From Planococcus sp. 107-1 (GTDB lineage Bacteria; Bacillota; Bacilli; Bacillales_A; Planococcaceae), in the NCBI RefSeq assembly GCF_021513255.1, contig NZ_CP090977.1, positions 3,038,001 to 3,102,000 on the forward strand: a stretch of DNA of 64,000 nucleotides. The letters are read 5' to 3'. The notes beneath the pieces are model-generated. The model saw only the letters and a list, made by a program, of their open reading frames with translations, was not told the DNA's origin and did not search any database. A program made the translations under genes and the position numbers. Positions 692 to 41,919 of this stretch are shown piece by piece. Every line of letters begins with the position of its first letter. Within the stretch, counting starts at the first letter, position 1.

Positions 692-1687
692 ATGGTTTTA
701 GTTAAAAAAGCGGGGATGCCTGTGCTATGGAAAACGAGGAATGAGACTGCTGATAAAGAACGTGCAGAAGTACTGTTGAGGCGATTGCCGAAAACCCATC
801 CATCGTATATGTTGGCGAAAAACGACTTATGGAATGCCGAATCCGGAATCAGCGGGGAAAGGCGATTTGATGCGTATTTTTCGATGAGCAAAATCGATTT
901 TCCGCATCTTGTTTTACATGATGTTCCGCTGAAATCGGCCCTCCCTTTCCAGTTGGATTCGTTGTTGATCACACCTTGGTGTGTCTATGTGTTCGAAGTA
1001 AAGAATATGTCCGGCCGCCTGTTCTTTAAACAATCGCCTCCACAGCTCATCCAAACGAAAGAAGACGGCTCCGTCACCGGGCGCAAAAGCCCCATTGAAC
1101 AAATGGCGACAAACGAATGGCTGCTCGAAGAATGGCTTTCTTCTCGGGCGTATTTTTTACCGATCCGTTCCGTGCTCGTATTTTCATACACGAAACAGAT
1201 GCCCGAAAACTTTCCGAGAGAGCAAATCGCGTTGTTTTCAAATCAGCTGCCGATGTTTTTACGAAAACTGCAGCCTGAAAAAGAAATCATGAGTTTGAGC
1301 GAAATTGAGAAGCTCGCAACTGAACTGGCAGCGGCACACTCCCCTTATGCACACGAGCCGATCTGCGCGAATTCCGCTTTTCCTGTCGAAGCGATGCAGC
1401 GTGGCGTCTGGTGTGAGCCTTGCAACCGCATTGGCATGAAACGCAAGTACGGGACATGGGTTTGTCCGAGTTGCGGCGTTTCAAACAAAGATGCCCATAT
1501 TCGCACACTCAAGGACTGGATAATGCTGACCGGCGAACCGCTGACGAATAAAAGATGCCGGGAGATTTTGCAAATAGAGGATCATCGCTTAGCTAGCCGA
1601 CTGTTAATAAGCATGAAAATGAAGAAAACCGGTTCTTATAAAGATGCGAAATACATTTTTGAAGCTAGTTGGGAGTATTTTTTATGA
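692..1687 (+). CDS. NERD-domain protein with C-terminal zinc ribbon
   Basis: A 331-residue protein with an NERD (nuclease-related) domain at about residues 55-165. The segment around GERRFDAYF, QLDSLLITPWCVYVFEVKN and the following I-x-Q motif is the usual signature, related to restriction-endonuclease-like folds. The C-terminal third has a CxxC pair (WCEPC) and a second CxxC (VCPSC), a likely zinc ribbon, followed by a helical region. The start at 692 has only a weak ribosome binding site; it was kept because the paralogue at 20672 aligns from a similar N-terminus. The last codons and stop lie inside the first unit of a 21-bp repeat array. Role unknown; DNA processing is suggested by the family name only. 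Confidence 0.75.
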   Translation: MVLVKKAGMPVLWKTRNETADKERAEVLLRRLPKTHPSYMLAKNDLWNAESGISGERRFDAYFSMSKIDFPHLVLHDVPLKSALPFQLDSLLITPWCVYVFEVKNMSGRLFFKQSPPQLIQTKEDGSVTGRKSPIEQMATNEWLLEEWLSSRAYFLPIRSVLVFSYTKQMPENFPREQIALFSNQLPMFLRKLQPEKEIMSLSEIEKLATELAAAHSPYAHEPICANSAFPVEAMQRGVWCEPCNRIGMKRKYGTWVCPSCGVSNKDAHIRTLKDWIMLTGEPLTNKRCREILQIEDHRLASRLLISMKMKKTGSYKDAKYIFEASWEYFL

Positions 1688-1771
1688 AGTCGGGAGTATT
1701 CGGGTGAAAGTTGGGGATATTTCATAGAAAGTTAAGAGTATTTCTCCTTAAGTTGAGAGTAATTGCATTCT
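1667..1771 (+). repeat. Array A: five tandem 21-bp degenerate repeats
   Basis: Five consecutive units of exactly 21 bp start at 1667, 1688, 1709, 1730 and 1751. Each starts with AGT and carries a GGGAGTATT- or GAGAGTATT-like core. The first unit encodes the end of the NERD protein (WEYFL and stop). The units are related, with differences, to arrays at 7880, 20428, 21646 and 41836. No spacers separate the units. Confidence 0.85.
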
Positions 1772-1781
1772 CAACTCAATA

Positions 1782-1823
1782 AAAGAGCGGAGGACCAATC
1801 AATATTGGCCCTCCGCTCTTTTT
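1782..1823. terminator. Bidirectional terminator between convergent genes
   Basis: A long inverted repeat, AAAGAGCGGAGG with CCTCCGCTCTTT, further extended by CCAAT/ATTGG in the loop, has A-rich and T-rich flanks on both sides. It can serve the NERD gene and the minus-strand stress protein. Confidence 0.85.
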
Positions 1824-1827
1824 CTTA

Positions 1828-2640
1828 TTATTTATTATCTTTATTCTTCGGTGTAATGGTTGCGCCGCCTGAATCATTTTGCGTGATATCGGCATCGCCC
1901 AATTCCACTACCTGCGTTTTGCCTTTATCTTGGTTAGCTTCTTTTTCGGCTTTCTTCACTTCTTTTTCAACTTGCTTCTCTGCTTTTTCGTGTTCTTTTT
2001 TCGCTTTTTCTTCTGCTTTCGCTTCTTTGATGACTACTTTTTCCTGCTTCTTCAATTCTTTTTCTTCTTTTTTCTCCGTACGCTTCGCTTTCAGCTCATC
2101 GACTTTGCCTTTTGTTGCATCTGTCGCACCTGAAGCTTTTTCTTTAACTTGGCCGACTTTGTCTTTTACTTGGTCAACTGTGCCGCTCAATTTTTCTTTA
2201 GTTTTGCCAGCGGTATCGGAAAGTTTTTGCGAAGAGCCGGAAGTTTTATCTTTTACCACTGCCTGCATCTCTTTGCCGCTTTTCGGTGTCAATAGGAGGC
2301 CGGCTGCTGCTCCGATAATGGCGCCTGTAGCCGCTCCCTTGATAAATGCAGAGCTGCCGACGCTGCCTTTGCCTCCAGTTTGTGACAAGGGTTGATCAAT
2401 TTTTCCAGTCCGCACTAAGCGCTCTTCTACTTCTTCAACGATTTCCTGCAAAGTGCGGCCTCTTGCATCAACAAGAGGGACATTCATGTGAAAATCAGCT
2501 AAATCCTCTTGATCCCGGACAACTACACAATCGTAGTCCATTGAATCTGTCTTGTCGGTCAACATTTCCGCTTTATAGCCTTTTTGTTCTAATGCATTTT
2601 TTACGGATACAAACGGTTCTTCTACTGCAATTTTCACCAT
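1828..2640 (-). CDS. YkuS-like (UPF0180) plus YtxH-like stress protein
   Basis: A 270-residue protein. The N-terminal ~80 residues (MVKIAVEEP, DYDCVVVRDQ, GRTLQEIVEEVEERL) resemble the small YkuS/UPF0180 family of Bacillus. Residues ~95-125 contain a glycine- and alanine-rich hydrophobic stretch (AATGAIIGAAAGLLLTPKSG) typical of YtxH-domain general stress proteins. The rest (~125-250) is a highly charged Lys/Glu/Ala coiled coil. The two families normally occur as separate small proteins, so the combination is unusual. It probably attaches to the membrane by the short hydrophobic segment. No sigma-B promoter was recognised upstream. Function unknown. Confidence 0.75.
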   Translation of the reverse strand: MVKIAVEEPFVSVKNALEQKGYKAEMLTDKTDSMDYDCVVVRDQEDLADFHMNVPLVDARGRTLQEIVEEVEERLVRTGKIDQPLSQTGGKGSVGSSAFIKGAATGAIIGAAAGLLLTPKSGKEMQAVVKDKTSGSSQKLSDTAGKTKEKLSGTVDQVKDKVGQVKEKASGATDATKGKVDELKAKRTEKKEEKELKKQEKVVIKEAKAEEKAKKEHEKAEKQVEKEVKKAEKEANQDKGKTQVVELGDADITQNDSGGATITPKNKDNK

Positions 2641-2742
2641 CTTTTGTCCACTCCCTTTTCAAATTTGTCTCAATTTTGCTTATAGTGTTTTATTTCCCCT
2701 CTTTAGCGGTCGAATAAACGCAGTAGCAAGAATGAAACATTT

Positions 2743-3231
2743 TTAATATAAGGGTAATTTCGCTTGGCTCATAACTAGACGGCGAACAATCACCGCCCCA
2801 AGAATAGCTCCGGATAGGCTGGAGACGAGAAATGGCGGCATGAAGAATAGCGCTGCCGCTTCTGTGCCCATCAATAATTTGGCGTAAGGAACTGCAATGA
2901 GTGCGGCGAGAATGCCGGTGCCGACCACTTCCCCGAGTGCCGCTATCCAAACTTTGCCGAATTTCATGTAAATCAACCCGGCAAGCAATGCACCGATCAT
3001 GCCACCCGGAAAAGCAAGCAGCGAGCCGGTGCCTGTCATAACCCGGACAATCGCTGTCAGGAAAGCCACTAATACTGCAGCGGCAGGTCCAAAAATAACC
3101 GCTGCGATCACGTTCACCGCATGTTGGATGGGATAGGCGCGTGCAATGCCGGCTGGGAAAGAAACAAATGCAGAACCTGCCACGCTTATTGCCGAAAGCA
3201 TGGCAAGGATGACTAATTTTCTCGTTTTCAT
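2743..3231 (-). CDS. thiW: ThiW, thiamine-precursor ECF transporter S component
   Basis: A 162-residue integral membrane protein with five to six hydrophobic helices. YPIQHAVNVIAAVIFGP, GSLLAFPGGMIGALLAG and LGEVVGTG match the ThiW family, the substrate-binding subunit of an energy-coupling-factor transporter thought to import the thiazole precursor. It needs the shared ECF module (EcfA/A'/T), not present here. Its start overlaps the thiE stop by 4 bp, and it is the last gene of the riboswitch-controlled thiamine salvage operon. Confidence 0.9.
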   Translation of the reverse strand: MKTRKLVILAMLSAISVAGSAFVSFPAGIARAYPIQHAVNVIAAVIFGPAAAVLVAFLTAIVRVMTGTGSLLAFPGGMIGALLAGLIYMKFGKVWIAALGEVVGTGILAALIAVPYAKLLMGTEAAALFFMPPFLVSSLSGAILGAVIVRRLVMSQAKLPLY

Positions 3232-3884
3232 TTATGGGCACCTTCCATCGCTGAATCTCTTAAGGCTGACACTTCTGCTGCAATATCACCCGCATACGAA
3301 ATAGCGGTGATGACCGCAACTCCACAAGCCCCGGCTTTCCAAATAGCGGCAGCATTTTCAGAAGTGATTCCGCCAATACCGACAATCGGCAGGTTTGGAT
3401 AAGCTTTCTTAACTGTTTGGATGCCTGCCACTCCAGCTGGTGCTTTCGCATCGGTCTTGGTCGAAGTCGCAAATACGGGTCCCATGCCGACATAATCTGC
3501 TCCGCTTTCTACTGCCTGTTTTGCCTCCGCCAAGGAATGCACCGAAACGCCGAGCAGTTTGTCAGCGCCCCAAATTTTGCGAACCGCTGCAGCAGGTGCG
3601 TCGTCCTGGCCAATATGGATGCCATCTGCGCCAATTGCCCAGGCAAGCTCAATATCATCATTGATCAGGAAAGGGGTTTGGTAGCGCTGGCACAACTCTT
3701 TGCAATCAAGTGCAAATTTGAGCAACTCCGCGCCTTTCAACGCATTCGGCCCTTTCTCCCGCAACTGAAAATAATCGATGCCAGCCGTTAAAGCCGCTTC
3801 CAAAATCATCAATGGATCTTTCCCTCCCGCATTCTCCGTTCCAAGGATAAAGTAAACGACCGGTCCTTCACTGAATTTCGACAT
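3228..3884 (-). CDS. thiE: Thiamine-phosphate synthase
   Basis: A 218-residue TIM-barrel enzyme that joins HMP-pyrophosphate and thiazole phosphate to make thiamine phosphate in the cytoplasm. Family motifs are visible in order: YFQLREKG near residue 40, the INDD segment that binds Mg-pyrophosphate, DGIHIGQDD, VGVSVHS, DYVGMGPVFATSTK and the phosphate-binding VGIGGI. Length is normal. It overlaps thiD (upstream) by 17 bp and thiW (downstream) by 4 bp, so translation is probably coupled. Confidence 0.95.
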   Translation of the reverse strand: MSKFSEGPVVYFILGTENAGGKDPLMILEAALTAGIDYFQLREKGPNALKGAELLKFALDCKELCQRYQTPFLINDDIELAWAIGADGIHIGQDDAPAAAVRKIWGADKLLGVSVHSLAEAKQAVESGADYVGMGPVFATSTKTDAKAPAGVAGIQTVKKAYPNLPIVGIGGITSENAAAIWKAGACGVAVITAISYAGDIAAEVSALRDSAMEGAHK

Positions 3885-4704
3885 AGTTCATTTCCCTTCT
3901 TTCGTTCATGGATTTCCGGTAGGCAGCGTGATTGGTCGGCCCGTGGCCAGCTCCGATGTTCAATTCGCTGCTCAAAGCTGCGTGGATAAATTGTTTAGCC
4001 GTGTAAACCGCTTCTTTAAGCGACTTTCCTTTTGCCAGTTCAGCAGTCAGCGCTGCTGAAAACGTACAGCCGGTTCCATGTGTTTGCACTGTCGCAATTC
4101 GAGGCGACCGGAACAGCAGCTCTTCACCGTCCTGATAAAGAAAGAAATCTTCTGCGACATATTGGTCCTTGCCATGTCCGCCTTTGATGATCACCGACTC
4201 GGGGCCATACGACAGGATCTTTTGCGCCGCCAGTTTCCGGGACGCGGAGTCAATGATTTCAATGCCGCTCAAGACCTCCGCTTCCGGTATATTCGGCGTC
4301 ACTACGGCAGCTAAGGGCAGCAATTCCTTTTTAAGTGCAGCCCCTGCTTCTGCGCGCAATAAATTCGCTCCGCCTTTTGCAACCATGACCGGGTCGACGA
4401 CCAGCTGCCGCCAGTTGAAATACCGAATCCACTTGGCCGTTTCTTCAATGATTTCTTCATTAAATAACATTCCGGTTTTCAATGCCGCTAGCTGGAAATC
4501 CTTTCCGATAGCCTGCAATTGAGTCTGCACCGCTTCTCTTCCCATCGGGTAAATAGCGGCAACACCGAGCGTATTTTGCGCGGTCACGGCCGTCAGAACA
4601 GAAGTCGAATAAACTCCGAGTTCCTGGAATGTTTTAATGTCCGCTTGGATTCCTGCGCCTCCTCCGGAATCCGATCCGGCAATGGTTAATACTTGTGGAA
4701 TCAT
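3868..4704 (-). CDS. thiD: HMP kinase / HMP-phosphate kinase
   Basis: A 278-residue ribokinase-like enzyme that phosphorylates hydroxymethylpyrimidine twice. Visible motifs are the N-terminal TIAGSDSGGGAGIQADIKT, VVDPVMVAKGG, TPNIPEAEVLSG, VIIKGGHG and the anion-hole region THGTGCTFSAALTAELAKG with its catalytic Asp replaced in the usual GTGC context. Length matches ThiD. The start overlaps the end of thiM by 4 bp. With TenA and ThiM it forms a salvage rather than a de novo route, since no thiC or thiG is present in this window. Confidence 0.95.
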   Translation of the reverse strand: MIPQVLTIAGSDSGGGAGIQADIKTFQELGVYSTSVLTAVTAQNTLGVAAIYPMGREAVQTQLQAIGKDFQLAALKTGMLFNEEIIEETAKWIRYFNWRQLVVDPVMVAKGGANLLRAEAGAALKKELLPLAAVVTPNIPEAEVLSGIEIIDSASRKLAAQKILSYGPESVIIKGGHGKDQYVAEDFFLYQDGEELLFRSPRIATVQTHGTGCTFSAALTAELAKGKSLKEAVYTAKQFIHAALSSELNIGAGHGPTNHAAYRKSMNERREMNYVEIQ

Positions 4705-5495
4705 TTTGGCTGCAGCTCCTTTCCGGCAGGCAGTTCGGTATCGCCTATTCCAGGTCGGGCTAATTGGTTCAGGAATTCGATTTGAAAACTGCCAGGTTCA
4801 GGAGCTAAATGGCTTGCCCGCTCTCCCGCTTCCCCGTAAAAACGCAAGGCTTCTGCAGCAGCACTTAAAACGTTTTCCGGATAGACGGCTAGATAGGCAG
4901 CAACCACTGCGCTTAACAGGCAGCCAGATCCCGTAATTGCCGACATGAGCGGGTGCCCAAAAGGAATTTCCACGATTTCTTTTCCATCCGTAACAATATC
5001 AGTTGAACCTGTTACAGCTACAACCAGCCCGAGCCTACCGGCAGCTTCGACTGCCAGCTGCTTCACATCCGCTTCACCGCTGCCGGCATCGACCCCTTTC
5101 CCTTGCCATTCGGTTCCGCAAATCGCGGCAAGCTCGCCTGCATTGCAGCGCAGCACGGCAATATTCACTTCCGTTAAAATTCTTTTCGCCGCAGCCGCTC
5201 TGAAAGCTGTCGCTCCTACACCTACAGGATCCAGTACGACAGGGCGGCCCAATTGATTCGCTGTCTTTCCTGCAATGATCATGCTTTCCAAAGTTTGGGC
5301 GTTCAAAGTTCCAATATTGAGTGACACGGCTCCAGCAATTGCCGCAAGTTCAGCGGCCTCTTCCGGCGCTTCGCCCATGATCGGAGAAGCCCCAATGGCA
5401 AGCAATCCATTGGCCTGATAGTTTGAAACGACGTGATTCGTAATGCAGTGGACAATCGGATTTTCAGCGCGCAATTTCTCACTCACTTTAAACAC
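4701..5495 (-). CDS. thiM: Hydroxyethylthiazole kinase
   Basis: A 264-residue kinase that phosphorylates hydroxyethylthiazole for thiamine salvage. Recognisable are PIVHCITNHVVSNYQANGLLA and ASPIMGEAPEE at the N-terminus, the DPVGVGAT motif, and the C-terminal GSGCLLSAVVAAYLA that carries the catalytic Cys loop. Length is normal. The start overlaps the end of tenA by 8 bp. Confidence 0.95.
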   Translation of the reverse strand: MFKVSEKLRAENPIVHCITNHVVSNYQANGLLAIGASPIMGEAPEEAAELAAIAGAVSLNIGTLNAQTLESMIIAGKTANQLGRPVVLDPVGVGATAFRAAAAKRILTEVNIAVLRCNAGELAAICGTEWQGKGVDAGSGEADVKQLAVEAAGRLGLVVAVTGSTDIVTDGKEIVEIPFGHPLMSAITGSGCLLSAVVAAYLAVYPENVLSAAAEALRFYGEAGERASHLAPEPGSFQIEFLNQLARPGIGDTELPAGKELQPK

Positions 5496-6171
5496 CCGCC
5501 TTCGTGTATGGTTTTACCGTCCATGTCTGCATTGTCCAAGCCTGCTCCCAGAAATTCCATTCGTAATAGCTGCTTCTGCGGAAACGGTCCTTCAGTTCTT
5601 TGCGCCGTGTTTCGGTTAGTCCTTCTGCGAGAAGGTCCATCCGCTCGATCTGTTCGTTTACAAGTGCCGCAAATTCCTCTCCGCCATAAGTTTCGATCCA
5701 GCGGCTGTAGATTGGATGATCCGGCTTCGCTTCTTTAAGCCGGTCGCCGATTTCCTGATAAAGCCAGTAACAAGGAAGAATTGAAGCGAGGACGTCCGCC
5801 AAATCCCCTTCAGCCGAGCGGTACATATGCGATACATACGCGTAAGCATTCGGCGATGGTTCAAATTCAGCCCAATCCTCTTCGGTCACTCCAAGAAGTT
5901 TCATGAATGATTCGTGCAAAGCCATTTCAGCCGCACAAGTATGCTCGGCATGAAATGCGAAGCGCTTGGTCGTTTCTAAATCTTTGGCTTTTACCGCACC
6001 GATTGCCTGTACCTTTGCAAAATGTGTTAAGTAATAGGCATCCTGCATAACGTAATAGCGAAAAATGTCTAAAGGCAGTGTCGCGTCTGCGATTCCTTTG
6101 ACAAACGGATGTTCAAAACTTGCTTCCCATAATCCATTGCACTCCAACCGGACTTCTTCACAAAATTTCAT
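5488..6171 (-). CDS. tenA: Aminopyrimidine aminohydrolase (thiaminase II)
   Basis: A 227-residue all-helical protein that recovers HMP from thiamine breakdown products. The catalytic cysteine is Cys134 in ILPCYWLYQEIG and the catalytic glutamate is Glu204 in SYYEWNFWEQAW; both are intact. Length matches TenA. It is the first gene of the tenA-thiM-thiD-thiE-thiW operon and lies directly downstream of the riboswitch and its terminator. The ribosome binding site is AAAAAGGAG. Confidence 0.95.
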   Translation of the reverse strand: MKFCEEVRLECNGLWEASFEHPFVKGIADATLPLDIFRYYVMQDAYYLTHFAKVQAIGAVKAKDLETTKRFAFHAEHTCAAEMALHESFMKLLGVTEEDWAEFEPSPNAYAYVSHMYRSAEGDLADVLASILPCYWLYQEIGDRLKEAKPDHPIYSRWIETYGGEEFAALVNEQIERMDLLAEGLTETRRKELKDRFRRSSYYEWNFWEQAWTMQTWTVKPYTKAGV

Positions 6172-6195
6172 TTCGCCATCTCCTTTTTTGCAAAT

Positions 6196-6228
6196 AAAAA
6201 CGCCACTCTCCAGTTAAGGAAAGCGGCG
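6196..6228 (-). terminator. Riboswitch-controlled terminator before tenA
   Basis: Read on the minus strand, CGCCGCTTTCC pairs with GGAGAGTGGCG (loop TTAACT) and is followed by TTTTTATTTG. It sits between the TPP aptamer and the tenA start, the classical place for ligand-dependent attenuation. Confidence 0.75.
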
Positions 6229-6264
6229 TGTGCGTATGCATTGAAAGATAGAGAAATAGCATGC

Positions 6265-6358
6265 TTCTCGCCACTTCCCTACGCTGGTATGATCCAGATC
6301 AGGTTCAAAGGGTCCGGGCTTATGCCCGTCTCAGCCGATATCCGGCTCCCCTAGTGGG
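6265..6358 (-). promoter_or_regulatory. TPP riboswitch (THI-box)
   Basis: On the minus strand the conserved THI-box blocks are all present: the 5' part ending in CTGAGA, then ACCCTTTGAACCTGATC, and the 3' block CTGG/ATCATACCAGCGTAGGGAAG. The element is correctly placed upstream of tenA and is followed by a terminator hairpin, so thiamine pyrophosphate should switch off the salvage operon. Confidence 0.95.
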
Positions 6359-6382
6359 TGTTTTATTTGGTTGTCGAAATCA

Positions 6383-7799: not shown

Positions 7800-7879
7800 A
7801 CGAAGTTTGCGCTGATACCCGTCTAGAACACGAGCGTTTCGCTGGTGAAATGCGCTTCCAAATACGAGATGCGAAGGCT

Positions 7880-7960
7880 ATTTGCGTTTAAATTTTTTTA
7901 TTTGCGTTCAAAGGAAGTTTATTTGCGCTTAGAAATTTTTATTTGCGCTCAGCAATTTAA
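7880..7960 (-). repeat. Array B: four 20-21 bp repeats
   Basis: ATTTGCG begins at 7880, 7900, 7921 and 7941, each followed by TT(C/A)A-rich sequence, giving a period of 20-21 bp. Read on the minus strand the unit is TTGAACGCAAATA-like, matching the first half of the units in arrays C and D. It sits between the permease fragment and the rlmN terminator. Confidence 0.75.
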
Positions 7961-7967
7961 ATAACCA

Positions 7968-8002
7968 AAAAAGGGCATCCCGAATGTCGGGATGCCCTTT
8001 TA
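7968..8002. terminator. Terminator of rlmN
   Basis: AAAAGGGCATCCCGA pairs perfectly with TCGGGATGCCCTTTT around a 3-base loop. It is nearly symmetric and can work in both directions; it lies just downstream of the rlmN stop on the minus strand. Confidence 0.9.
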
Positions 8003-9709: not shown

Positions 9710-9712
9710 AAG

Positions 9713-20427: not shown

Positions 20428-20547
20428 GAACGCGCGCATTTCTGTTTGAACGCACGCATTTCTCTCTGAACGCACGCATCTTGTTTTGAACGAGCGTATT
20501 TTTTCCTGAGCGCGCGCAAATTCAAATAAACGCGCACATCGGCTCAT
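20428..20547 (+). repeat. Array C: six tandem 20-bp repeats
   Basis: Six units of exactly 20 bp start at 20428, 20448, 20468, 20488, 20508 and 20528. The consensus is GAACGCGCGCATTTCTNTTT with variants (GAACGCACGC, GAACGAGCGT, GAGCGCGCGC, AAACGCGCAC). It is between the divergent purine permease and NERD gene; a shorter array of the same unit follows the NERD stop codon. Confidence 0.9.
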
Positions 20548-20671: not shown

Positions 20672-21625
20672 ATGGAAAAGAGACCAATCGGAATGATGCC
20701 CCGTGCTGAGGGATTAAAGCGGTTAATTAATCGGCTGCCAGCTGAGCATCAAAGTCAAAGTTATCTTCAGAAAGAGCTACACCGCACTACTTCCGGTGCA
20801 AGAGGTGAACAGCGAATCGAAACGCGGTTCAACGAGTTTTATTTAGATGAGGATTTTCGTGTGATGTGGAATGTCCAATTACAATTAGGGAATTGGCCGG
20901 TCCAAATAGATGGATTGCTTTTGACAAAACGCTGCGCAATCATCATCGAATCCAAAAATATTAGCGGCCAAATCCATTTCGACGAACAGACCGGTGAGTT
21001 TTACCGAATTGATGATGATGGCTTAAAGACTGTTATGGAAGATCCCCAGATTCAGCTTCGCAAAAATATCCGATTTTTGTCCGTCTGGTTCAAGAAACAT
21101 AAGATCTTATTGCCAATTCAAGGCCTTATCGTATTCACAGCGAAAAAATGCGAGTTTATCACGAAACCCACCCGAACGCCTATTTGCAAAACTTATCAAA
21201 TGCCTGAAATGCTTTTGAAAATTTACGAAGCCCTCCCCCCAACGGCTGCGAACCTTTCACTTCTCAAAATAAAAAATGTACTTCTATCAAGTCAAACCCC
21301 TTTTATAGAAATTCCATTGTGTCAACGATATTTTATTCATCCTGGTGAATTGAAGACAGGCGTATATTGCCGAAATTGTCAATTGCCAACAATGTTCCGG
21401 ACGAAACGGAGCTGGCATTGTCAAACCTGTCATCATCATGACCTGCTGGCTCACGAATTTGCGCTGCAGGAATACTTTTCTTTAATCGATACAACCATCA
21501 CGAATGAAAGATTCCGCGAGTTTTGCGGGCTCGATTCTCGCCATGTCGCTGGGCGGCTATTAAGCCATTTTGATTTGCAAACGATCGGCGAATCGAAAGC
21601 GCGGCGGTATCGGTTGAAAAATTAG
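20672..21625 (+). CDS. NERD-domain protein with zinc ribbon, second copy
   Basis: A 317-residue paralogue of the protein at 692-1687, with low but clear similarity in the same layout. N-terminal helical part; the NERD domain at ~45-155 (GARGEQRIETRFNEFY, QIDGLLLTKRCAIIIESKNISG); then VYCRNCQ and HCQTC, a four-Cys zinc ribbon. The family fold is nuclease-like; activity is not demonstrated. The ribosome binding site is AGAGGTG. Its stop codon is immediately followed by array D, and array C precedes it. Single gene; no partner gene indicates a defence or DNA-repair role. Confidence 0.75.
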   Translation: MEKRPIGMMPRAEGLKRLINRLPAEHQSQSYLQKELHRTTSGARGEQRIETRFNEFYLDEDFRVMWNVQLQLGNWPVQIDGLLLTKRCAIIIESKNISGQIHFDEQTGEFYRIDDDGLKTVMEDPQIQLRKNIRFLSVWFKKHKILLPIQGLIVFTAKKCEFITKPTRTPICKTYQMPEMLLKIYEALPPTAANLSLLKIKNVLLSSQTPFIEIPLCQRYFIHPGELKTGVYCRNCQLPTMFRTKRSWHCQTCHHHDLLAHEFALQEYFSLIDTTITNERFREFCGLDSRHVAGRLLSHFDLQTIGESKARRYRLKN

Positions 21626-21705
21626 AAGTGCACGTATTTTTTGTTGAACGCGCGCATTTCTCTCCAAACGAGCGCATTCCCATTTGAACGCGCGCAAACA
21701 AAATC
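21625..21705 (+). repeat. Array D: 20-bp repeats after NERD gene
   Basis: Units start at 21625 (degenerate, 21 bp), 21646, 21666 and 21686, with GAACGCGCGCATTTCTCTCC as the best copy. They are the same sequence family as array C, 1.1 kb upstream, in the same orientation. The array begins at the last base of the NERD stop codon. Confidence 0.88.
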
Positions 21706-31104: not shown

Positions 31105-31214
31105 AACACAGCTCCTTTCTTTTTAACTAAATCAAGTCAGCATGGCTTGCAATATTCCATTATTTTTGATATGGTCTAGCTAATTCAATATTTTCTTGCC
31201 CGGATATTCCGGGT

Positions 31215-31365
31215 GAGGATAGAGGTGCAAAGACCATCAGTACGCTTACCGAGGAGTATGGGATCCGTTGACGTTTGCTGAAAGGGGAATTTGCCGAAGC
31301 GATGAAAGGCTCATACTGGCTATCGCTGGTTCTGCATTGAATAAATGCTGAACTGTCATATAGGA
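31215..31365 (+). promoter_or_regulatory. Lysine riboswitch (L-box)
   Basis: The conserved L-box blocks appear in order: GATAGAGGTGC, ATCAGTA, GAGGAGTATG, AAAGGGGAATTTGCCGAAG, GAAAGGCTC, CTGGCTATCGCTGGTTCTGCA, and the closing AACTGTCAT (the longest block is split here for reading). It lies upstream of dapA and is followed by a terminator, so lysine should repress dapA by attenuation. Confidence 0.95.
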
Positions 31366-31392
31366 AACTATATGGAGGGCTATCTGACACAA

Positions 31393-35192: not shown

Positions 35193-35426
35193 CCATTACC
35201 ACTCCCATTGCGTCATTGCCGATTACGTAAAAATAACCGCTACCGTTCATACTACCATCTCTCGCTAAAAGTAACAGCCGTTCAATCTGGCTGTTCGAAT
35301 GTATAGCCAATTCCCGCCATTAGTCCGTTAAATAACTAGTTGCCTCCTGGATGACTGAGTCTAAATGCTAAGGATTCCCAACTGCCATTAAGGCCTTTAT
35401 AACCAGCCATTATTTTTTCATCCCAA

Positions 35427-35463
35427 ATAAAAAACGAACCCGTTCGGCTCGTTTTTTATTTGG
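35427..35463 (-). terminator. Terminator of SDR genes
   Basis: AAATAAAAAACGA and TCGTTTTTTATTT enclose an additional CC/GG-paired loop, just after the SDR stop codon on the minus strand. Confidence 0.8.
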
Positions 35464-35477
35464 TCAATCTTCCAGCT

Positions 35478-36365
35478 TCATGCGTTTTCGGATTCCCCCG
35501 AGACTTCAGTGCCGATTTCAAGCGGTTCGTGCAGACTGCCGGATGTCGGCGGCGCTGGCGGCGCATCTTCTATCACTTTCTTTACTTGCACCGAATTCAT
35601 CTTTTCGGTCAGTTTCGGCATGAGGCTCCGCGACAACGCGGTTCCTTTCACTTTCGTTCCTACTCCAATGGATTCCTGCGGGTCATCGATCAGGCTGATG
35701 ATCGCCTCAATGACCGGTTCCGGTTCGTCCATCGGCTTCATTTCCGCTTCGTGCCCTGTGTAGTTGGCCGTATGCAGAAACCACGGCGTGTCGGTCGCCC
35801 ATGGATGGACCATGCAGACATGAATATTCTGATGGCCTTCCAATTCGATTTCCTGATAAAGGGAAGCCGTTAACCCGATCACTGCAAATTTCGTCGTACT
35901 ATAGGGAGTATAGTACGGGAAAGGCACTTTTCCTGCGACCGAACCGATATTGATCAAGGTGCCATGTCCTTGCTGCTTAAACTGGCGCAGTGCATAATGG
36001 CTGCCAATCAGCGTACCGATGACATTGATTTCAACTGCGCGTGCCATGTCCTTCCCTGGCACTTCCGTATAAGGGCCGATCGCCCCCACCGCTGCGTTAT
36101 TAATCCAGACATCGATTTTCCCGAAAGTGGATAGCGCCGTCTCAAAAAGATGCTTCATATCTTTTTCCTTGCTGACGTCTGTGGTAACGGCAATGGCATT
36201 CGAACCCAGTTCATTGGCCAATTCCTCTAACAATGCAGTTCGGCGGGCAGCGAGAACCACATTCGCTCCGTCAGCCGCCAATTGCCTCGCTGCCCCTTTT
36301 CCAAAACCGCTTGAAGCACCGGTAATAACAACCGTCAAACCCTGCCTTTTTTCATTTTCAGCCAT
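35478..36365 (-). CDS. SDR-family oxidoreductase (second of tandem)
   Basis: A 295-residue short-chain dehydrogenase. NAD(P) binding TGASSGFGKG near residue 15, NNAAVGAIG, catalytic Ser in IGSVAGKV, and Tyr-Lys in YSTTK. The C-terminal ~60 residues are an extension beyond the classical fold that ends in TGSLHEPLEIGTEVSG, also found in its neighbour. The substrate is unknown. AAGGAGG precedes the ATG at 36365; an upstream in-frame start would overlap the neighbouring gene. It is the second gene of a two-gene operon of paralogues. Confidence 0.85.
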   Translation of the reverse strand: MAENEKRQGLTVVITGASSGFGKGAARQLAADGANVVLAARRTALLEELANELGSNAIAVTTDVSKEKDMKHLFETALSTFGKIDVWINNAAVGAIGPYTEVPGKDMARAVEINVIGTLIGSHYALRQFKQQGHGTLINIGSVAGKVPFPYYTPYSTTKFAVIGLTASLYQEIELEGHQNIHVCMVHPWATDTPWFLHTANYTGHEAEMKPMDEPEPVIEAIISLIDDPQESIGVGTKVKGTALSRSLMPKLTEKMNSVQVKKVIEDAPPAPPTSGSLHEPLEIGTEVSGESENA

Positions 36366-36384
36366 GCGATTTCCTCCTTGCCGC

Positions 36385-37284
36385 TTATTTATTGCGGAAA
36401 CGTTCACGCATCTTGCCAGAGACTTCGGTTCCTTCCATACGCGGTTCGAACAAACTGCCGGATGTCGGTTCAGCAGGCGGTGAACTTTTCAGCATCCGGT
36501 CCAGAAAATGGCCATCCAATTTCTCGACAGTGTCCGGCATCAATTTGTGTATGATCGCTGTGCCTTTTACTTTAAAGCCGATTTCCAGACTTTCTTGCGG
36601 ATTATCGATCAGCCCGAGAATCTCTTCGATGACTTCTTCCGGGTCGTCAGCTGGACCAATTTCAATGGCATGTCCGCTGTAATTTCCGGCATGTTCGGTC
36701 CAAGGCGTATCCGTCACCCACGGATGAACCACGCAAACTTGGATGTCCTTCCAGTCATCCAGCCGCATTTCCTGATACAAGCCTTTGCTGAGCCCCGAAA
36801 TTCCGTATTTGGTCGCCGTATAGGCGGCTCCGAATGGAAGCGGAACACTTGTGACAAAAGAAGAGAGATTGATCAATGTTCCGTAGCTTTGCTGCTTAAA
36901 TTGCTTTAAAGCAAAGCGGCTGCCGTACATCGTTCCCATGAGATTCACCTGGACGAGCCGCATCTGATCCGCTAGTGGAATTTCCGTGAATGAACCGATA
37001 ATTCCGAGCCCTGCATTATTAATCCAGACATCCACTTTTCCAAAATCCGCAAGCGCTGTATCCATCAGCCGTTCCATATCGCCTTCGATACTGATATCCG
37101 TCGTAACAGCAACTGCATTCTGCCCCAACTCTTCCGCCAGCTGCTCGATCAGCTCCGTCCGCCGGGCCGCCAAGACGACATTCGCGCCTTCTGCTGCAAG
37201 CCGCTTCGCCATCCCTTTGCCAAAGCCGCTTGAAGCACCGGTGATGACAACGGTGAGGCCTTGCCTGGATTTTTTGTCTGCCAT
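36385..37284 (-). CDS. SDR-family oxidoreductase (first of tandem)
   Basis: A 299-residue paralogue of the next gene: TGASSGFGKGMAKR, NNAGLGIIG, Ser in LSSFVTSV and YTATK. The C-terminus has the same TSGSLFEP and EGTEVSGK blocks. Tandem duplication is evident. DUF-like C-terminal extension of unknown role; substrate unknown. GAGGAGG precedes the ATG; 19 bp separate it from the second gene. Confidence 0.85.
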   Translation of the reverse strand: MADKKSRQGLTVVITGASSGFGKGMAKRLAAEGANVVLAARRTELIEQLAEELGQNAVAVTTDISIEGDMERLMDTALADFGKVDVWINNAGLGIIGSFTEIPLADQMRLVQVNLMGTMYGSRFALKQFKQQSYGTLINLSSFVTSVPLPFGAAYTATKYGISGLSKGLYQEMRLDDWKDIQVCVVHPWVTDTPWTEHAGNYSGHAIEIGPADDPEEVIEEILGLIDNPQESLEIGFKVKGTAIIHKLMPDTVEKLDGHFLDRMLKSSPPAEPTSGSLFEPRMEGTEVSGKMRERFRNK

Positions 37285-37387
37285 TTAAACTCCTCCTCAG
37301 GTAGAGAATGTTTTGTTGCTTTTGCCATACCCCTTTCTCTGCAATGAAAACGCAAGCGTCTTGTAGATCTGCCAAGGAATTAAATCC

Positions 37388-37423
37388 AAAAAACGGACAC
37401 CCCATGAATGGAGTGTCCGTTTC
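37388..37423 (-). terminator. Terminator of the sigma/anti-sigma operon
   Basis: AACGGACAC pairs with GTGTCCGTT; on the minus strand it is followed by TTTTTTGG. Confidence 0.85.
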
Positions 37424-37435
37424 TTCCTTCTATTC

Positions 37436-37882
37436 TTAAATCTCGGAGCTCAAGACGATTTCTCCCTGCGGCGAGGCATTGCCAGCCTGAGGTTCGAGCG
37501 TAATTGCGATCGTATCCCAGTCTTCGGTATTGTCTTCCAGACTGTAATACGCATTCCCTTCTCCATTGGCACTCGGAGTAAAGGCTCCTGCCGGAATCGG
37601 TTTGCCTTCTTTCAAGAGCCAAATCTGATAGACTTGTTCACCTTCAAGGGCTTCCAATTGTTCGGCTTGCACGACCAATTCAAGCGACTCCTCTTCCCGG
37701 ATGATTGCGGCTTTCGCCGTTCCGCCAAATACTTCATTCGGCTGAAGATCGATGGATTGGAAGGCCATCTCCCCGCCGGTTTCCGGCTGTTCCGACAGCT
37801 TCAGCAAGGCATAGCCATTGCCGAGCAGCGATACGAACAAGGCAGCCGCAATCAGCACCGGCCATCTATTCTTCTTTTTCAC
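37436..37882 (-). CDS. RskA-like anti-sigma C-terminal domain protein
   Basis: A 148-residue protein with one membrane helix (PVLIAAALFVSLLGNGYALL) and an extracytoplasmic domain of the RskA type (GEQVYQIWLLKEGKPIPAGAF, IAITLEPQAG). This domain usually forms the C-terminal half of a single anti-sigma factor whose N-terminal half is the zinc-finger domain. Here that half is encoded by the preceding gene in another frame, overlapping by 17 bp. The start would be GTG at 37882. Natural split or a single-base frameshift in the AAAAA run near 37886: both are possible. Confidence 0.75.
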   Translation of the reverse strand: MKKKNRWPVLIAAALFVSLLGNGYALLKLSEQPETGGEMAFQSIDLQPNEVFGGTAKAAIIREEESLELVVQAEQLEALEGEQVYQIWLLKEGKPIPAGAFTPSANGEGNAYYSLEDNTEDWDTIAITLEPQAGNASPQGEIVLSSEI

Positions 37883-38150
37883 CGCTTTTTGTGTGATAAG
37901 CGGAGCGGGTTCCCCGCTTCACTTCTTCGGATTTCTTCTGCTCTTCTTCGAAGACAGTAGACAAGATTCTGGCTTTCATCCCGGCAGGTGGATCGACAGG
38001 ATCTGCAAGGTAAGGGAGATCGCCCGTCATTTCAATGATTTCCTGACAATCCGTACAGGTTTTCAAATGCTGTTCAAATTCAAGCTGTTCTTCTTTACTG
38101 AGCGTTCCGTTCAAATAATCGATGACGTGGTCACAATTCAGTTTCGCCAT
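37866..38150 (-). CDS. Zinc-finger anti-sigma factor (ZAS domain)
   Basis: A 94-residue soluble protein with the HxxxCxxC motif (His28, Cys32, Cys35, in EQHLKTCTDC) of ZAS-type anti-sigma factors, which bind their ECF sigma factor in the cytoplasm. No membrane segment; the charged tail ends in GEKEE. Its start lies within the end of the sigma gene (13-bp overlap), typical for coupled sigma/anti-sigma pairs. Possibly the N-terminal half of one protein with 37436-37882. Confidence 0.85.
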   Translation of the reverse strand: MAKLNCDHVIDYLNGTLSKEEQLEFEQHLKTCTDCQEIIEMTGDLPYLADPVDPPAGMKARILSTVFEEEQKKSEEVKRGTRSAYHTKSGEKEE

Positions 38151-38710
38151 GGTGAGTCCCCCCTTTCCTGCATATCATGCAAAGTCCCTTTCAGTTTTTT
38201 CAAAGCGAGCCGTATCCTGCTTTTGACGGTCCCAAGCGGAACCTCGCATAGCTCAGAGATTTTTTCATGTGTGTATCCTTTAAAATAAAACAACTGGACC
38301 ATTTTTTGCTGCTCGGCAGATAAATCTTTTACAGCCAATTGAATCTGTTCTTTCTTTTCCTGCCATTCTGCCGTTTCTTCCACACTCGATGCTGGACTAA
38401 CCAATTCTCCAGCCTCTTCAAGCGCCACTGACGGCTTTTTCTTCTTGCGGATCAAATCGATGGCGGCATTCCGTGACATCGTGAATAGCCAGGAAGTGAA
38501 TTTCCCTTTGCTTTCATCGTACTCTCCAACACCCCGCCAGACTTTCATAAAAACTTCCTGCAGCGCTTCTTCTGCCAAATCCCGGTCTTCGGTCATTTTC
38601 ACAAGAAACGAGAAAAGAATTTTTTCATAGCGGTCGTATAATTGTTCAAGCGCTTCTTTGTCTTTGTTCCGTACACGTTCATATAGAACAAAGTCTGAAC
38701 TTTTCTCCAT
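38138..38710 (-). CDS. ECF-type RNA polymerase sigma factor
   Basis: A 190-residue group 4 sigma factor. Region 2 covers ~10-80 (LYDRYEKILFSFLVKMTEDRDLAEEALQ in parts, FTSWLFTMSRNAAIDLIRKKKK) and region 4 ~125-175 (LSAEQQKMVQLFYFKGYTHEKIS, LGTVKSRIRLALKKLK). It is the first gene of a sigma/anti-sigma operon and is divergent from a gene for an MPATG surface protein, which with its paralogue carries the likely cognate promoter (38929 and 43424). That motif was not found before the sigma gene itself. AAGGGG precedes the ATG. Confidence 0.93.
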   Translation of the reverse strand: MEKSSDFVLYERVRNKDKEALEQLYDRYEKILFSFLVKMTEDRDLAEEALQEVFMKVWRGVGEYDESKGKFTSWLFTMSRNAAIDLIRKKKKPSVALEEAGELVSPASSVEETAEWQEKKEQIQLAVKDLSAEQQKMVQLFYFKGYTHEKISELCEVPLGTVKSRIRLALKKLKGTLHDMQERGDSPWRN

Positions 38711-38928
38711 AACTGGTCCCCTTTATTCAGATTTCATTCCTCAAGCTTACTATAACTCAGCGTTAGCCAACACAATAAAGTTAAGGAATCGAGAATTCGA
38801 AGATAAGAAGAGTGAAAATGAACGATGCATTTTCATTCTTTTATTCGCAGCTACTTCTTTTTGCTTTCTTACTCCTCTAACGGATCGATTCGTTTTTTAG
38901 TTCACTTTTAAAAGTTTTTTTAAAAAGA

Positions 38929-38955
38929 GTGATCTATTTTCCAACAGGTTCCGTT
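38929..38955 (+). promoter_or_regulatory. Putative ECF-sigma promoter of surface protein 1
   Basis: GTGATCTA (38929-38936), 15-bp spacer, CGTT (38952-38955), preceded by a TTTTTTTAAAAA tract. Exactly the same arrangement lies before the paralogous surface protein at 43376. The spacing and the CGTT -10 core fit ECF sigma promoters. Confidence 0.65.
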
Positions 38956-38991
38956 AGGTAAGCAAGAAATGAAAAAAGAGGAGTGTTGACG

Positions 38992-40326
38992 ATGAAATGG
39001 AGAAAAATTTTAGCGCCGGTATTAGGGGCAGCGCTGCTGCTGCCAGGAATGGGAGCAACGGCATTTGCACACGATGGCCCGCACGTGGATACAACAGGAG
39101 ATGAATTGCGGGCGACGCTTGATGGTTTGCTGTCTGAGCACTACGCTCTGGCTGTCGACTCGATGATGAAAATCTACGACGGCGATAAAGCAGCCGAAGC
39201 GGCCATGGCTGCATTGGATGAAAACGCAGCCGATATGGAGCCGGTCATCGCATCCGTTTATGGTGAAGAAGGCGGAGCGGCATTCGAAGAAATTTTCGCA
39301 AAGCATAATGTTGGAACAGATGACTATGCAATGGCCGTAAAAGACGGAAACGAAGAAATGAAGCAAGAATCCCTTGATCAGATCCAGTCATTTGTTGACG
39401 AGATGGGCACGTTCCTCGCAACAGCAACGGAAGGCAACCTTCCAGAAGAAGGAGCCAAACAGGCGTTGCGCCAGCATGAAGATTTCGTACAAGATACATT
39501 CGACTTATATGTAGCTGGTGAATACGAAGCGGCTTATACTTCTTATCTTGAAGGCTTTAAGCAGATTTTCGGAGCTGGCAGTGCCATCAGCGGTGCAATT
39601 GCCACTCAATTCCCTGACCAGTTCACGGACCCGAATACACCGGCCGGCGATTTCCGTTCAACAGTGAACCGAATTGCGGCAGAACATTTTGCACTCGCAC
39701 AATTGAGCATGGCAAAAGGCTATAACGGTTCAGCAGACTTTGACTTTGCTGATTGGGCACAAGACCAGAATACAGAAGAGTTCCGCGGCGCTTTAGCTTC
39801 TGTCTATGGGGAAGAAGCAAGCAACCAATTCACCGCTCTTTGGAACAACGAACACATTTCAATCCAAGGCAATTTAGCCGCTGCTTCCGCTTCTGAAGAT
39901 CAGGAAGCTGTAGACGGTGCCGTCATGACATTAACAGATACATTTGCAAACGAATTAGGTACTTTCCTAAACACAGCGACTGAAGACCGCATGCCGCTTG
40001 AAGAAACGATTGCTGCTGTTGCGGCACACGAGAAATCAGTAGTAGATACATTCCAGCAATATGTTTCTGGTGATTATGCAGCTTCCTACGAGACTTACCG
40101 CACTGGCTATGCCATCATGTTCGATATCGGCAAAGGCTTAAGTGGTGCAGTTGTAGATCAATTCCCTGAGAACTTTGTCAATGCAGCCCCTGAAAAAATG
40201 CCCGCTACCGGATTTGGCGGCAGTGAAAGCCAATCCAGCACGATGATGCTTTGGGTAGCTTTAAGCGCATTGATCTTAGTTGGCGCAGGAACTATCACGT
40301 ATCGTCAAAGTAAACAACAATCATAA
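38992..40326 (+). CDS. Cell-wall-anchored helical-repeat protein 1 (MPATG)
   Basis: 444 residues: signal peptide (1-29, cleavage after ATAFA), two ~165-residue all-helical repeats (about 38-200 and 215-385; each has an xEH-AL motif near its start, YGEE, ATE-R/N-LP, and QFP-F at its end), then sorting signal MPATG (403-407), a membrane helix and a short charged tail. Conserved His residues in the repeats suggest a metal or heme site, without proof. Such repeats are sometimes annotated as copper amine oxidase, with no catalytic motif that I can see. GAGGAG precedes the ATG at 38992. Next gene is a class F sortase. Confidence 0.82.
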   Translation: MKWRKILAPVLGAALLLPGMGATAFAHDGPHVDTTGDELRATLDGLLSEHYALAVDSMMKIYDGDKAAEAAMAALDENAADMEPVIASVYGEEGGAAFEEIFAKHNVGTDDYAMAVKDGNEEMKQESLDQIQSFVDEMGTFLATATEGNLPEEGAKQALRQHEDFVQDTFDLYVAGEYEAAYTSYLEGFKQIFGAGSAISGAIATQFPDQFTDPNTPAGDFRSTVNRIAAEHFALAQLSMAKGYNGSADFDFADWAQDQNTEEFRGALASVYGEEASNQFTALWNNEHISIQGNLAAASASEDQEAVDGAVMTLTDTFANELGTFLNTATEDRMPLEETIAAVAAHEKSVVDTFQQYVSGDYAASYETYRTGYAIMFDIGKGLSGAVVDQFPENFVNAAPEKMPATGFGGSESQSSTMMLWVALSALILVGAGTITYRQSKQQS

Positions 40327-40339
40327 ATGACAGGAAATA

Positions 40340-40363
40340 AGAGAGGGCTTTTTAGCCCTCTCT
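40340..40363 (+). terminator. Hairpin between surface protein 1 and sortase
   Basis: AGAGAGGGC pairs with GCCCTCTCT (loop TTTTTA). There is no T-run behind it, so it is probably an attenuator or RNA-stability element and not a full stop. The sortase start follows 29 bp later. Confidence 0.6.
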
Positions 40364-40391
40364 ATTCCTACTTTAATGGGAGGGATGGAAA

Positions 40392-41342
40392 ATGAAGCAG
40401 ATTGTGACAATGGGCATCGCCGTTTTTTTGGTCGCTGCCTTATTTTTCATTTTAAAGCCGTTGGCGAATGGCCCGGCGGATAAAGAAGAAAGCGTACAAC
40501 TTGAAGAAAACAGTGAAAAAGAAGTGACGGCGGGAAATGTTGTCGACAAAATCGCCGAATTCCCCATCTTTCCTGAACAGCGCGAAAAACTGGAAATGGT
40601 CCAAAAACAACGGCAAGAAAGCATTAAAGGCATGGAGCCGACGCGCATCGAAATCGAGTCCATCGGAGTTGAGGCAGCAATCGAACCGACCGGGATCCTT
40701 GAAAATGGCGAAATGGGCGTCCCAGAAGATGTCGATCAAGTAGGCTGGTTTGAACCCGGTTTCAAAGCTGGCGCTAAAGGACATGCTGTCCTTGCTGGCC
40801 ATGTCGACAGCTTGACCGGCCCAGCCGTATTCTACGAGCTGAAAGACGTTAAGCCTGGTGATCAAGTGAAACTATTTGATGCAACAGGCCGGGAAATGGT
40901 ATTTGAAGTTCAAAAACTGGCAAGCTATGAAACCGATGCAGCACCGATTGAAGAAATCTTCGGAAATGCAGACGGACGGTTCATCAACCTCATTACTTGT
41001 ACTGGCGACTTTAACCGTGATATCGGTTCGCACGAAGAACGATTGGTGGTAACAGCTGAACTCATCTCCGACTCGGCAGTTGAAATTGCAGCTCCCAAAG
41101 CACCGGAGAACGTCACTGCAACTGATTTCAATGTTTCGTGGCATGCTGTACGGGACGATGCCATTATCGGCTACCGCGTCTATGAAGAAGACATTGCATC
41201 CGGTGAGATGAAGAAAATTGAAACCGTCTCCCTGTTCGACCGCAAGAATATTACGATCGAGCCAAGCGAAGGCAAGCGCTACTACGTTTCCTCCGTAGAT
41301 GTGGATCTGAAAGAATCACAGAAAACAGAAGCGTTAAAATAA
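40392..41342 (+). CDS. Class F sortase with C-terminal fibronectin-III-like domain
   Basis: 316 residues: N-terminal membrane anchor (IAVFLVAALFFIL), linker, sortase domain (~82-225) with the catalytic His137 (VLAGHVDS), Cys203 (LITCTGD) and Arg217 (HEERLVV); VGWFEPG and GPAVFYEL are typical of class F. Residues ~235-316 (PENVTATDFNVSWHAV, IIGYRVYEED, KRYYVSSVDV) look like a fibronectin type III domain, unusual for sortases. It is encoded next to an MPATG protein, its probable substrate, from the same transcript. Confidence 0.88.
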   Translation: MKQIVTMGIAVFLVAALFFILKPLANGPADKEESVQLEENSEKEVTAGNVVDKIAEFPIFPEQREKLEMVQKQRQESIKGMEPTRIEIESIGVEAAIEPTGILENGEMGVPEDVDQVGWFEPGFKAGAKGHAVLAGHVDSLTGPAVFYELKDVKPGDQVKLFDATGREMVFEVQKLASYETDAAPIEEIFGNADGRFINLITCTGDFNRDIGSHEERLVVTAELISDSAVEIAAPKAPENVTATDFNVSWHAVRDDAIIGYRVYEEDIASGEMKKIETVSLFDRKNITIEPSEGKRYYVSSVDVDLKESQKTEALK

Positions 41343-41384
41343 AAACTGTGGAAGCATATCTAAAGGGCTTCCACAGTTTTTATT
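41343..41384 (+). terminator. Terminator of the sortase gene
   Basis: AAAACTGTGGAAGC pairs with GCTTCCACAGTTTT, followed by TATTT, immediately after the stop codon. Confidence 0.88.
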
Positions 41385-41559
41385 TGCTTTTAAAAGTTTT
41401 TCTGGTTATCAGGTTTCTCTTGGACTTTAGCCAAGAAAGTGGATTATGGTTTTACTGATTCTTTTTGTTAATGCCTGACGCACTTCGTTTTTATAACTTG
41501 AAGATAAGTTAAAAGATTTTCAGGCGGTATTTTTCTTCGAGTCTATGCGGTGAAAAAAG

Positions 41560-41800
41560 TGTGGAATATTTTCTATACGACGGATGCTGAAGCAGCCTCT
41601 CGGGCGTCCACCCTTGCAATGATGCGGGTTCGTTACATTCGCTCTTTCTTAAACGATTCGATGCAGGGATTGTCGCAGGGCTCCCCTTTGCGACTCATGC
41701 TGATTTTTACTTTCTTCGCTTTTAATAAAGTTATGTCCTCATTCGAACAGTAATGAGAGCCTCGACTGAAGCAGCGAATCGACTTCTTCGAGCGGAAACT
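41560..41800 (-). mobile_element. Decayed IS3-family transposase fragment
   Basis: On the minus strand the translation contains SRGSHYCS, LLKAKKVKISMSRKGEPCDN and CIESFKKE, which match the DDE-region end of IS3-type OrfB (RGSQY, ISMSRKGNCYDNACIESF). The remainder is out of frame and carries stops. No inverted repeats were recognised. A short plus-strand reading frame (41550-41753) is only its shadow. Confidence 0.7.
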
Positions 41801-41835
41801 CTTTTCTAAGACTATTTTCACTCTCGGTTTTATCC

Positions 41836-41919
41836 GGGCTTATTTTTGCCTTAACTGGGCGTATTCTTTCGACTACTGGGCGTATTTCTTCCTTAACTGA
41901 GCGTATTTTAAATTCGCAG
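41836..41919 (+). repeat. Array E: four 21-bp repeats
   Basis: GGGC/GAGC cores at 41836, 41857, 41878 and 41899, exactly 21 bp apart. The units read CTGGGCGTATTTCTTCCTTAA with variants, matching TTRAnYGnGCGYATTT, the consensus shared with arrays C and D. They lie between the IS3 remnant and the terminator of surface protein 2. Confidence 0.8.

Follow-up and report, generated by a model that had tools for sequence, protein, structure and literature searches.

The window analysed here is a stretch of 64,000 nucleotides from Planococcus sp. 107-1 (contig NZ_CP090977.1, positions 3,038,001 to 3,102,000). It contains five arrays of short tandem repeats, three of which (at 1667, 20428 and 21625) directly adjoin two open reading frames coding for proteins with a NERD domain, a zinc ribbon and a predicted C-terminal winged helix (Table 1). 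Genes of this architecture were found to be bordered by such arrays far beyond the window, each gene with a unit of its own, and the arrays are probably docking elements for the encoded proteins, which are predicted nucleases. All five arrays had been listed in an original prediction made from the sequence alone, and all were recovered at their places. Their self-match at a lag of 20 or 21 is 0.57-0.67, and for each array none of 2000 dinucleotide shuffles equalled the observed self-match at any lag from 10 to 30. At a score of 30, three of these arrays were listed by Tandem Repeats Finder: 7879-7958 (as two entries), 20428-20492 and 41836-41909.

Table 1. Repeat arrays, NERD genes and a hairpin in the window (positions are counted from its first nucleotide).
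Feature	Position	Strand	Remark
NERD-zinc ribbon-winged helix protein, 331 residues, owner of the 1667 array	692..1687	+	Pfam NERD 2.9e-16, alignment
Array, 5 units of 21 bp, AGTTGGGAGTATTT-like	1667..1771	+	first unit lies within the last codons of the gene
Array without NERD gene, 4 units, TTGAACGCAAATA-like	7880..7960	-	an RlmN-like gene ends 50 bp away
Upstream array, 6 units of 20 bp, TTGAACGCGCGCATTT type	20428..20547	+	unit reading, shuffle test
NERD-zinc ribbon-winged helix protein, 317 residues, owner of the 20428 and 21625 arrays	20672..21625	+	Pfam NERD 4.5e-15
Downstream array, TTGAACGCGCGCATTT type, 3 clear 20-bp units and a degenerate first	21625..21705	+	same orientation as the upstream array
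Array without NERD gene, 4 units of 21 bp, AACTGGGCGTATTT type	41836..41919	+	type ambiguous among several
Hairpin TTCGCCCGCGAA	21748..21759		element frequent beside NERD arrays of the genus

The five arrays had been described as intergenic copies of one degenerate unit. A common unit was not confirmed, the units of the different types being distinct. Since the arrays at NERD-zinc ribbon-winged helix genes each have their own unit, the proposed consensus merged several types, and a single drifting repeat family was ruled out. The intergenic location does not hold strictly for all of them, as the first unit of the 1667 array is coding. The period is indeed constrained, with a value of either 20 or 21 bp. 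This corresponds to two helical turns, and protein binding on the same face of the DNA, as already suggested, is the best reading. Likewise, no named family was found for these arrays here. Of the two arrays without a NERD gene, the one at 7880-7960 obtains its highest score with the unit of L034, a NERD locus in another Planococcus genome (G and L numbers denote compared genomes and loci), and is reduced in the sister species P. ruber (CGMCC 1.19134). The one at 41836-41919 was found at the same place in P. ruber. The only Rfam matches in the window were a lysine riboswitch (31212-31390) and a thiamine pyrophosphate riboswitch (6259-6362); with no match at the arrays, a structured RNA element was rejected. 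A 21-bp repeat in the coding sequence of a YtxH/UPF0180-like protein (1938-1990) has the same period as the arrays and misleads array detectors.

The genome of Planococcus sp. 107-1 (3,513,248 bases, one contig) contains eight NERD genes. Seven of them code for proteins of one architecture with about 310-330 residues, consisting of the NERD domain (PF08378), a four-cysteine zinc ribbon and a C-terminal part, which is a winged helix in the model of one of them. All seven pass the NERD cut-off (47-62 bits versus 22.1), and in comparison to Pfam no other family passed its cut-off, a Y1/HUH transposase included. In the protein encoded at 20672-21625, NERD spans residues 41-156, the zinc ribbon is formed by C233, C236, C250 and C253, and the predicted winged helix covers about 260-315. 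The AlphaFold2 model of this protein (mean pLDDT 92.2, pTM 0.77) shows C-terminal helices at 260-271, 278-285 and 290-298 and strands at 275-277, 302-305 and 312-315, in an order which we take to be that of a winged helix. The predicted PD-(D/E)XK active-site residues D80, E93 and K95 are invariant in 26 sequences. In a fold comparison, R.BspD6I, Bax1, Can2, McrC and BstEII were among the top matches; the best E value was 2.0e-3, and none was at or below 1e-3.

No accepted anti-phage match was obtained for the seven proteins with PADLOC, where one of them had a hit to PglW (E 0.0057), and the NCBIfam antiphage family MAD6 scored no higher than 18.4 bits (cut-off 460), in three of the seven and over the NERD part. 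For three of the seven, the N-terminal region and the NERD domain also matched PHROGs of unknown function, with a best E of 2e-6. The 20672-21625 protein had no match in 72,556 plasmid records or 50,697 phage records, and an alignment of the NERD proteins had none in viral contigs. A plasmid or phage element was rejected on these searches with one window protein and the alignment; the genes are chromosomal.

Arrays border all seven genes of this architecture, and the units, read by eye, are TTCGCACCTC, AGTTGGGAGTATTT, TTCGGACAGTATTT, TTGAACGCGCGCATTT, AATAGTGTAAGAACAA, AAAGTGCTCATAGAA and GAAATTACCC. No array was found within the 3.2-kb locus of the eighth NERD gene, which is of a different make. 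For the genus, 96 loci among the matches listed were examined and an open NERD frame was read in 89. A detector for 8-mers with at most one mismatch to the seed, 18-24 bp apart and within 500 bp of the gene, identified arrays of at least three units at 80 of the 89 loci and of at least four at 74. These counts (86 and 80 before correction) exclude six loci, L002, L061, L091, L098, L103 and L104, where the hit was a repeat within the coding sequence of the gene next door; at five of these six, arrays were subsequently obtained with unit profiles. In control open reading frames of at least 250 codons from the same genome, some of which lie beside dispersed arrays, at least three units were found in 18/189 and at least four in 6/189. 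NERD genes lacking the zinc ribbon (30 of 42 listed places, in 20 genomes picked for a weak profile match) had three units in 4/30 cases and four in none. For 34 loci from other genera and families, the frame was readable in 23, and 21 of these have an array of at least three units; the same was found at 6/6 loci from other families of the class. The arrays are thus associated with this architecture and restricted to it among the NERD genes compared.

A profile of the seven proteins matched 35 of 40 genomes of the genus (own included), with 1 to 11 matches each. At E 0.001, at which the weaker matches include other architectures, 112/121 sampled genomes of the family and 128/299 of the class were matched; in the genus and family, the number of gene copies in a genome varies from 0 to 12 at this threshold. 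At E 1e-30, six of 398 sampled genomes of the phylum were matched (own included), all from the same class. Among 29 named loci, 23 belong to Planococcus or Planomicrobium, and the rest to Indiicoccus and five uncultured or metagenome records (three partial matches). No account of NERD genes with repeat arrays was found in the open-access literature searched.

Unit profiles, for which the seeds allowed a spacing of 18-24 bp, were obtained for 112 of 119 loci and not for the remaining seven. Neighbouring units lie 21 bp apart in 696 and 20 bp apart in 254 (together 950) of the 999 spacings below 30 bp. The 231 arrays in 111 loci, with three overlapping ones left out, show a copy number peak at five or six units (133 arrays): 72 have six units, 61 five, 27 seven and 24 four. 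In the scan of one strand, that of gene orientation, at least two units were present on both sides of the gene at 68 of the 112 loci, downstream only at 37 and upstream only at 7. Many upstream arrays start 120-350 bp before the gene, and longer array sets often repeat a whole block together with its spacer. The units are mostly not palindromic: the median similarity of a unit to its own reverse complement is 0.30, exceeding 0.6 in 1/112 (L152), and to that of another locus 0.25. Whole units are present or missing when arrays of the own genome and P. ruber are compared, and in P. ruber a block of the upstream array recurs downstream of the same gene. Arrays of the GCAAACAA type mostly have six units, degenerate ones counted, with a recognisable first unit. 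By eye, no pattern of strand or replication bias was seen. At L257, units 2-5 with their spacers are common to two arrays separated by 1.3 kb (minus-strand coordinates 3995 and 5282), whose flanks differ; the common block is a likely conversion tract. Oversized arrays of about 25, 31, 54 and 41 units were observed at L283, L285 (G034), L171 and L181, respectively.

The similarity of the units follows that of the proteins. Over the 112 loci, the Spearman correlation between unit similarity and protein identity is 0.31, and none of 300 permutations was as high; the median unit similarity rises from 0.25 below 30% protein identity to 0.91 at 80% and above. For 1017 pairs at 40-80% identity, residues 286-315 gave a rho of 0.70 (partial 0.45) compared to 0.62 for the whole protein, and no 30-residue segment starting before residue 241 had a partial correlation above 0.18. 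In the model, the helix 290-298 and the strands 302-305 and 312-315 fall within residues 286-315; they are predicted to form the recognition helix and the wing. Within the winged helix, variability is highest in the wing, and the recognition helix does not exceed the rest in this respect. Because the protein pairs are not independent, these results are strong indications rather than proofs that the unit varies with the predicted DNA-reading end of the protein.

Arrays of the same units are also dispersed in the genome, as far as the genome-wide search proposed with the original prediction was carried out. Allowing up to three mismatches, the 20428 type has 37 matches in the own genome compared to one for the reversed pattern, located in the two gene-flanking arrays and at nine other places; two lone matches may be due to chance. 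In 400 kb of the own genome (20 stretches, roughly evenly distributed but placed away from the NERD genes and the window, 11% of the genome), five arrays resembling NERD-type units were identified without an adjacent NERD gene, one of them (L028) being a weak match (22.6; shuffle maximum 17.9). Seven of the nine dispersed 20428-type places were compared with P. ruber, and all seven are at the same sites there, as are 7/7 arrays of the GCAAACAA type; no fresh insertion was seen in the sites compared. Of 55 dispersed loci 53 were classified, orthologues counted separately: 27 lie between convergent genes, 24 between tandem and 2 between divergent ones, compared to 15, 66 and 33 of 114 control gaps. 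A gene 3' end adjoins 51 of the 53, at a median distance of 61 bp and within 100 bp in 39.

The dispersed units carry the same key letter as those at the NERD loci of their genome. This letter is C in 28/31 dispersed units of the own genome (9 loci) and 33/36 of P. ruber (7 of 9 known loci), and in 6/7 and 8/10 units of the respective NERD loci. In four other genomes it is T in 37/37, 72/84, 16/16 and 27/28 dispersed units, and in 12/12, 28/28, 6/6 and 8/8 NERD-locus units; the search pattern was built from the C form, which works against the detection of T-form arrays. Two intergenic sites shared between genomes also show the genome-matched letter, one of them in the own genome, P. ruber, G035, G010 and G002 and the other in the own genome, P. 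ruber, G034 and G002. For seven array pairs orthologous between the own genome and P. ruber, the core is identical at 328/352 positions (93.2%), the spacer at 186/221 (84.2%) and the flank at 640/772 (82.9%), with p = 0.001 for core versus spacer and p = 0.76 for spacer versus flank. The spacers of distant arrays have a similarity of 0.617 within and 0.658 between these two genomes, and of 0.618 within and 0.586 between genomes when five are included. In 60 loci around dispersed arrays, compared with 119 NERD proteins, the longest similar stretch was 32 residues, in two loci; a separate pass over 20 loci gave a stretch of 35 residues in L270.

A site downstream of an M42 peptidase gene carries different alleles of nuclease and array between alignable flanks. 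A NERD gene with the TCATAGAA unit is present there in the own genome, G035 and G037, and the unit is GCAAAYAA in P. ruber, GCAAGTAA in G029, and GCAAACAA in G030, G031, G015, G034, G020 and G012. In G002, G010, G016 and G017, the flanking genes lie about 405-500 bp apart, too close for a NERD gene to fit, and the alignment of G018 leaves no room for one. The absence of the gene rests on gap length, since nucleotide BLAST fails on the own NERD gene (L248) as well. At the gene-free site, three units are present in G002, four in G018 and a three-copy remnant in G010, and no array units were detected in G016 and G017. Matches of the TCATAGAA type number 20 in the own genome, 26 in G035 and 30 in G037, compared to 3 in P. 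ruber and none in G030 and G002. At the seven shared GCAAACAA sites, 28 units were recognised in the own genome compared to 39 in P. ruber, with fewer units in the former at five sites, an equal number at one and more at one. This would fit a decay of the arrays after loss of the nuclease.

We consider it probable that the arrays are docking elements with multiple sites, each for one particular nuclease. The chromosomal protein, with its PD-(D/E)XK-type NERD domain, zinc ribbon and C-terminal winged helix, would read the 10-12 bp core of the unit through the recognition helix and the wing, and with the usual four to seven units spaced by two helical turns, several protein molecules would line up along the same face of the DNA. 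Besides the arrays flanking its own gene, others, located mostly just past the ends of unrelated genes, would be bound in trans. After a change in specificity of the protein its arrays would have to follow, and after its loss they would decay. We infer that the core is bound, that several copies are bound jointly and that the nuclease is active. Each nuclease most likely binds its arrays in trans, and the arrays most likely hold or concentrate it at gene ends, keeping it harmless or placing it where it is active. Several observations weigh against this explanation. The detector found no true array at 9/89 loci (nothing at three, only the coding repeat at six), and none of the NERD genes of the own genome has the GCAAACAA unit, yet the GCAAACAA arrays persist there, reduced in size. 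The sequences are related, so that the permutation tests overstate independence, and the contrast between C and T may represent only one or two changes on the tree. The core columns were chosen by motif match in either species, which somewhat favours the core, and block copying occurs, so that part of the change in units could be conversion. A more far-reaching form, for which we see a small chance, is an addiction pair without an antitoxin gene. Here, the dispersed arrays would be the antidote, keeping a nuclease that reads sequence lined up and inert at the ends of genes; they would persist only as long as the nuclease does and would have to change specificity together with it. In that case, a single genome would harbour seven of these pairs with no cross-talk between them.

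A selfish pair similar to RAYT and REPIN, in which the nuclease makes or spreads the arrays as its non-autonomous offspring, would explain the gene between cognate repeats, the dispersed copies, the variable gene number, the rarity of arrays between divergent genes and the duplicated blocks of array plus spacer. It is nevertheless rather unlikely, given the sites common to the sister species, the lack of fresh insertions among them, and spacers which are not more alike within than between the own genome and P. ruber, and only slightly so over five genomes. If the nuclease instead cut the arrays as a homing enzyme, repair from another array would homogenise the units and could carry the gene. 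At 68/112 loci the gene is enclosed by arrays of one unit, blocks are common to the two arrays of one gene in P. ruber and to neighbouring arrays in G030, and different alleles occupy the M42 site in the own genome and P. ruber. However, the core is conserved above the spacer, distant arrays do not clearly share spacers and the NERD-like stretches around dispersed arrays are short, which leaves homing with a low probability.

We also regard it as improbable that the protein is a plain transcription or termination factor, with the arrays as operators or roadblocks and a nuclease fold used for binding only. The modelled winged helix, the upstream arrays 120-350 bp before the gene and the adjoining gene 3' ends would agree with it, but the invariance of the predicted catalytic residues and the avoidance of divergent promoter regions by dispersed arrays would not. 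Ordinary slippage repeats, present near these genes by chance, are hardly credible. Whole units are gained and lost and a few arrays reach 25-54 units, but slippage alone was rejected on the association (0/30 other NERD genes with at least four units), the covariation with the protein, the conserved core and the copy number peak. The local slippage and homogenisation named in the original prediction stand in so far as whole units change and a block is common to both arrays of one gene; they do not account for distant spacers that are not clearly homogenised, for the conserved cores and for units which follow the protein.

Docking elements for particular nucleases can be compared to several known systems. 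RAYTs are Y1/HUH transposases and REPs are palindromes, with the gene flanked by cognate repeats and copies dispersed between genes. This system is the nearest in logic, being chromosomal with cognate flanking and dispersed repeats, but here a NERD protein with a winged helix is combined with direct, mostly non-palindromic repeats, about five to six per array. In theta plasmids, iterons form short arrays of direct repeats, each about 20-22 bp long, next to the gene for a winged-helix Rep protein. The arrangement is similar, whereas the present system is chromosomal and includes a nuclease domain and many dispersed arrays, and the 20672-21625 protein has no match in the plasmid records searched. 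Homing endonucleases share the nuclease gene between its own presumed sites; here, however, no intron or intein was seen, the sites are tandem, and many gene-free sites are stable between species. In TnsA and Tn7-like elements, a restriction-fold nuclease is joined to a winged helix, and the ends carry repeated sites of 20-odd bp. In contrast, the arrays described here have the same orientation on both sides and their chromosomal positions are shared. SmdA of Staphylococcus aureus has partial similarity to NERD but is a membrane protein of cell division, and the paper on SmdA states that, to its authors' knowledge in 2022, the function of NERD had not been studied (PMC9040797).

Since each known kind considered fails at least one of the features compared, a nuclease with scattered cognate arrays would be an apparently undescribed type of genome element. 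If true, it would be widespread, judging from the profile matches in the family, the weakest of which may be of other architecture, and it would give the NERD domain a partner. Several pairs of different specificity coexist in one cell, and more than 100 natural pairs of protein and unit provide a ready set for learning how winged helices read DNA. That scattered sites change together with one protein is directly testable.

The hairpin located close to the downstream array belongs to an element of the form GC(T/A)TTTCGC...GCGAAA(A/T)GC, often followed by ATCC, which was identified within a few hundred bp of NERD genes of the genus (L007, L040-L043, L045, L106 and others). TTCGC-n-GCGAA has 90 matches at 50 of 96 NERD loci of the genus (115 kb) compared to 6 in the 400 kb of the own genome. 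Two of the 34 further loci contain it, in one case downstream of the NERD gene, and the 191 kb surrounding dispersed arrays gave 6 matches. This rarity led to the rejection of the hairpin as a part of all arrays. A different inverted repeat, GGACCAAAATTnAATTTTGGTCC, was observed in the NERD loci L152, L153 and L154 of another genus of the family, with a variant in L168.

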